From: Oncomelania hupensis
Lineage: Eukaryota; Mollusca; Gastropoda; Littorinimorpha; Pomatiopsidae
DNA: 64,000 nucleotides
Reading direction: 5' to 3'
Assembly: GCA_036898135.1 (NCBI GenBank)
Contig: CM072523.1
Span: forward strand, 38,328,451-38,392,450
Positions 35,989 through 59,856 of the stretch are shown here, in pieces. The notes beneath the pieces were generated by a model. It was not told the origin of the DNA and searched no databases. It was given only the letters and a program-made list of their open reading frames with translations. Every line of letters starts with the position of its first letter. Position 1 is the first letter of the stretch. The translations under genes and the position numbers were made by a program.

Positions 35989-36061
35989 ATGATGCGAACG
36001 ACTTGTTCCTTGCTGGGTTTCCTGGCTTTGATCAAAGCCGCTCATGGACAGATGCCATCTG
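35989..36061 (+). CDS. EGF-module gene exon 1 (signal peptide)
   Basis: ATG at 35989 (a second ATG at 35992). It encodes MMRTTCSLLGFLALIKAAHG and then QMPS; cleavage is likely after AHG. The donor is GTAAAT. It ends in phase 1 and GAC is completed at exon 2. Linkage to exon 2 across a 7-kb intron rests on phase and order. Confidence 0.72.

Positions 36062-59856: not shown

Follow-up and report, generated by a model that had tools for sequence, protein, structure and literature searches.

A probable fucolectin-related gene with two lectin-like domains between EGF modules in the snail Oncomelania hupensis

In 2015, Gorbushin and Borisova reportedly described fucolectin-related molecules (FLReMs) from haemocytes of Littorina littorea, in which an N-terminal stretch with no known homologues is combined with an FTP domain and EGF repeats. 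Here, we analysed a window of 64,000 nucleotides from the snail Oncomelania hupensis (contig CM072523.1, positions 38,328,451 to 38,392,450) that carries a ten-exon gene on its plus strand at 35989..59856. We consider it likely that this gastropod gene belongs to the fucolectin-related kind already described in Littorina and codes for a secreted surface recognition protein with one EGF module, two jelly rolls, three EGF-like modules and a probable glycosylphosphatidylinositol (GPI) tail. The protein resembles the reported layout of the FLReMs; it differs in that its N-terminal region can be read as an EGF module plus a first jelly-roll domain.

Other described systems are also relevant to this locus. 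The F-type lectin repertoire of L. littorea has been hypothesized to serve immune defence (PMC5712786), and expansion of the fucolectin and MEGF gene families has been reported in Gigantopelta aegis (PMC7895826). In the eel agglutinin (AAA), the main disulfide joins Cys50 and Cys146, and His52, Arg79 and Arg86 bind fucose; the sequence motifs given for F-type lectins are HX24RXDX4(R/K) for fucose and hhDGx for the cation (PMC5712786). The section of the same source on oyster sperm bindin describes one to five F-type domains, each with an intron mid-way that acts as a place of recombination generating variants, and some copies without the His-Arg-Arg triad.

A ten-exon gene and its relative in Littorina saxatilis

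The initial annotation joined ten exons into one frame of 485 codons and placed all nine introns in phase 1, where the codon is cut after its first base. We confirmed this model: the spliced coding sequence of 1458 nt encodes 485 amino acids, ends in TAG, and has nine of nine introns in phase 1. The exons, with the evidence for each in brackets, are as follows.

Exon 1, 35989..36061, plus strand: start codon and signal-peptide-like stretch, then a phase-1 donor (frame join, splice scoring)
Exon 2, 43055..43213, plus strand: first EGF-like module, 8 Cys (tblastn to P0002 31-75, 49% identity, E 1.2e-8)
Exon 3, 44657..44869, plus strand: first half of predicted jelly-roll domain 1, with VDGN and Cys 111 (tblastn, shuffles, fold of the P0002 equivalent)
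Exon 4, 45240..45440, plus strand: second half of predicted jelly-roll domain 1, with LAICEIAV and Cys 209 (tblastn, shuffles, fold of the P0002 equivalent)
Exon 5, 51026..51199, plus strand: first half of domain 2, with VDGD and Cys 240, followed by a GC donor (0/2000 shuffles; no tblastn match of its own)
Exon 6, 51536..51703, plus strand: second half of domain 2, with PFCEIEILG and Cys 323 (weaker, 24/2000 shuffles; no tblastn match of its own)
Exon 7, 52579..52695, plus strand: second EGF-like module, 6 Cys only (tblastn, shuffles, donor scan)
Exon 8, 55511..55645, plus strand: third EGF-like module, 8 Cys (tblastn, Cys count)
Exon 9, 57097..57243, plus strand: fourth EGF-like module, 8 Cys (tblastn, Cys count)
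Exon 10, 59786..59856, plus strand: GPI-like or membrane tail and stop (hydropathy; 106/2000 shuffles against the P0002 tail)

P0002 is a Littorina saxatilis protein of 481 residues, the single protein returned by a search with words from residues 28-330 (E 3e-29). A source has attached to it the name Fucolectin-related molecule. We observed homology over its full length together with an identical order of modules, so the earlier statement that no named family shows this arrangement is not supported. In the BLASTP alignment, P0002 covers residues 35-484 of the window protein with 228 bits and 33% identity, and a global alignment gave 37% identity. Conserved sequence spans the joins of exons 2/3 (CQYVN), 4/5 (GRN) and 6/7 (GDC), and the remaining joins sit in gapped or less conserved stretches of the alignment. 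When P0002 was compared with the window by tblastn, six of the ten exons (2, 3, 4, 7, 8 and 9) were matched, in order and on the plus strand, with no individual match for exons 1, 5, 6 and 10. Exons 2-10 (exon 1 was left out) were also scored one by one against the P0002 regions taken from the alignment and compared with 2000 shuffles. Seven of the nine pieces (exons 2-5 and 7-9) scored above every shuffle; the score of exon 6 was reached by 24. Compared as proteins, the two share their length, the order of EGF, two middle domains, EGF-like modules and hydrophobic end, the Cys pairs and the VDG sites. They differ in the exon-7 EGF module, which has 8 Cys in P0002 and 6 in the window protein, and in extra P0002 residues in that module and in domain 2.

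Splice signals are insufficient by themselves for the gene model because the acceptors score less well, and the model was settled by homology. Ranked against every AG in the window, five of the nine acceptors miss the top 5%, the worst being that of exon 5 (15.7%). Borders are GT-AG in eight of the nine introns and GC-AG in intron 5. For all nine donor-bearing exons, the donor used was the top scorer within the open frame by a simple weight matrix. At a threshold of 4, in a scan that took in no GC donor besides that of intron 5, exons 1, 4, 5 and 8 had no alternative donor; exon 7 has further in-frame donors that score lower than the one used.

Next to P0002, a profile made from the two proteins found few relatives. 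Two proteins reached E<=1 among 4482 candidates, P0002 and a bivalve protein that matched in the EGF modules, which leaves P0002 as the only full-length relative. This search covered candidates close in length that have short exact words in common, and it does not show the family to be confined to Littorina. The idea of a lineage-specific recognition protein is a reasonable inference from one full-length relative in 4482 candidates, but wider relatives may lie beyond the reach of the search.

At the N-terminus, exon 1 encodes a stretch with the hydropathy of a signal peptide, for which cleavage is likely after AHG at residue 20, as judged by eye. Between 24000 and 43050, the plus strand holds two distinct candidate signal-peptide first exons, one of them exon 1, and the minus strand holds none. 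The EGF-like modules of exons 2, 7, 8 and 9 contain 8, 6, 8 and 8 Cys, and the protein has ten N-x-S/T sites. At the C-terminus, exon 10 encodes small residues, a short spacer and a hydrophobic run to the end with no charged residues after it; P0002 likewise terminates in a hydrophobic stretch. Hydropathy and residues suggest that this tail probably directs GPI anchoring, and exon 10 appears to be the least certain exon of the model. It is possible, though we think it unlikely, that the gene has several alternative ends besides exon 10, giving a soluble protein or a membrane-spanning receptor with cytoplasmic exons beyond the window. With nine phase-1 junctions, splicing could include or omit any symmetrical exon, and exon 10 is the weakest in homology; against this, the Littorina relative also stops soon after its last EGF module, in hydrophobic residues and without a cytoplasmic tail. 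Such alternative ends would be compatible with a gene of the fucolectin-related kind.

Fold and sugar-binding site of the two middle domains

We next consider the two lectin-like modules, which the initial annotation described as F5/8- or fucolectin-like and placed at residues 78-330. Both modules are present within one extracellular gene, after an EGF module and before three EGF-like modules and a hydrophobic GPI-like end, as proposed; we correct their boundaries to about 79-329. Domain 1 is encoded by exons 3/4 and domain 2 by exons 5/6, and each is split mid-way by an intron. The structure model of P0002 (mean predicted local distance difference test score, pLDDT, 45) supports for domain 1 a galactose-binding-like beta jelly roll, the broader class of folds to which F-type lectins belong. 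The jelly-roll check put forward earlier thus came out positive for the first domain, on the Littorina model, and not for the second. A profile of domain 2 searched against PDB sequences had an F-type lectin domain as its best, weak match (E 0.27), and P0002 matched the Pfam model PF22633 at 16.7 bits, below the cut-off of 27.8.

Several observations weigh against the proposed identity of the protein. Domain 2 yielded no usable fold in the model, with pLDDT below 50, and the F-type, CBM32 and DOC matches to the P0002 model are tied within about 1-2 Z. No Pfam domain reaches its cut-off in the window protein, and the matches listed in the proposed profile check, even at E<=10, include neither an F5/8 type C model nor an F-lectin model. 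The domain 1 profile returned nothing relevant among PDB sequences, and a profile-profile comparison of the two domains fell short of significance (probability 0.5%, E 0.13). At the C-terminus, the exon 10 score was reached by 106 of the 2000 shuffles, so that the tail is poorly supported by homology, and GPI anchoring is judged from hydropathy. For the region before the second lectin-like domain, the model indicates an entire first jelly roll, overlooked by sequence profiles.

The window protein resembles eel agglutinin and other F-type lectins in the predicted fold class of domain 1, the position of the main Cys pair and the DG site. In all four domains of the two proteins, we equated a Cys pair with Cys50-Cys146. 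The cation motif is strictly fitted in three of the four (window domain 1, IVDGN; P0002, AVDGN and VVDGD), and TVDGD of window domain 2 satisfies just one of its two hydrophobic positions. In contrast to the F-type lectins, the window protein has no contiguous Cys-Cys pair, and the fucose motif HX24RXDX4(R/K) is absent from the whole of it and the whole of P0002. None of the four domains has a His at Cys+2, where the residues are I, N, T and R. Given that neither protein carries the fucose motif, simple terminal fucose is an improbable ligand, and the sequences suggest that the domain pair has left fucose binding.

Phase-1 introns, half-domain exons and repeats

In animals, exon shuffling is well known to act on modules that have a phase-1 intron on either side, and such shuffling is held to have contributed largely to multidomain proteins (PMC3927616). 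Here, modules are bounded by phase-1 introns throughout (9/9), as in class 1-1 exon-shuffled extracellular genes. Uniform phase 1 is therefore expected for genes of this class and unsurprising in itself, and the initial annotation, correct as to the phases, overstated them as a special sign. We find it more interesting that a pair of symmetrical exons encodes each of the middle domains. Since a phase-1 intron cuts both domains near the same place, the half-domains are swappable in principle.

This split-domain layout is shared with oyster bindin, and the gene might instead encode a gamete-recognition protein of that sort rather than an immune molecule, which we regard as fairly unlikely. The likeness is one of layout and lies in tandem F-type-like domains that are each cut mid-way (exon pairs 3/4 and 5/6); the distance of the window protein from its relative (33% identity) would also fit, as would the bindin copies that lack the His-Arg-Arg triad. 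On the other side, the bindin section of PMC5712786 mentions neither EGF modules nor a GPI-like end, and the Littorina littorea lectin work it cites concerns haemocytes, going by the reference title. One oyster bindin gene is reported to have a retroposon next to its first domain (PMC5712786). In our window, a reverse-transcriptase relic lies in intron 4 between the lectin-like domains (47923-48870, minus strand, RVT_1 just under the cut-off). Further relics with RVT_1 above the cut-off occur at 17849-18208 and 60740-61024, both on the plus strand, and this recurrence across the window tempers the parallel. More speculatively, and with low probability, exchange of half-domains, comparable to the variant-generating recombination of oyster bindin, could have diversified a snail gene family that gave up the fucose site for variable ligands, as a hypervariable recognition system.

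It is also quite improbable that this is a decaying copy, with its frame open yet losing function. The two missing Cys of the exon-7 module relative to Littorina, the GC donor of intron 5 and the large repeat-filled introns would agree with decay. However, 485 codons run over ten exons without a stop or frameshift, the Cys pairs are retained in both middle domains, and GC-AG introns are a normal minority class. A scavenger receptor class F, MEGF, Draper-type or Tie-type EGF receptor is very improbable: among PDB sequences, SCARF1 (E 0.024) and Tie2 (E 0.15) are matched weakly and in EGF modules only, the layout of such receptors disagrees with the two middle domains and the absent cytoplasmic part, and the full-length Littorina relative speaks against it.

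Several other elements were observed in the window. Opposite copies of an AT-rich repeat of ~740 bp, 93-96% alike, lie in intron 1 (41392-42142) and intron 7 (54742-55479), the latter stopping ~30 bp upstream of exon 8. Intron 4 contains a fold-back element (49429-50605) of inverted repeats of ATTCTATG-like units, with outer arms 98% complementary, and intron 9 contains more inverted repeats (57473-58354; arms 92-95% complementary). An inverted pair at 42836-42985 and 56338-56487 (87%) has tRNA-like box sequences by eye and is perhaps a short interspersed element; ARAGORN found no tRNA in the window. On the minus strand, two exon-like pieces at 4725-5366 look by eye like a LAMP-type luminal domain; when they were joined, nothing in Pfam passed the cut-off and LAMP was not matched. 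A possible hAT transposase relic at 3900-4383 (minus strand) has a very weak match (E 0.092) on a piece read across a frame break.

Proposed role in gastropod recognition

For a gene of the fucolectin-related kind, we propose that the signal peptide would lead to secretion of the product and that the hydrophobic tail would anchor it by GPI at the cell surface. The EGF modules would form a stalk that projects the jelly-roll pair from the surface of a cell, likely a haemocyte or an epithelial cell. There, the jelly-roll loops may recognise a ligand carried by microbes, parasites or other cells, one probably other than simple terminal fucose. The locus shows how a snail fucolectin-related molecule is laid out in exons on the genome and, if the family is immune, it would add a membrane-tethered candidate receptor to gastropod immunity.
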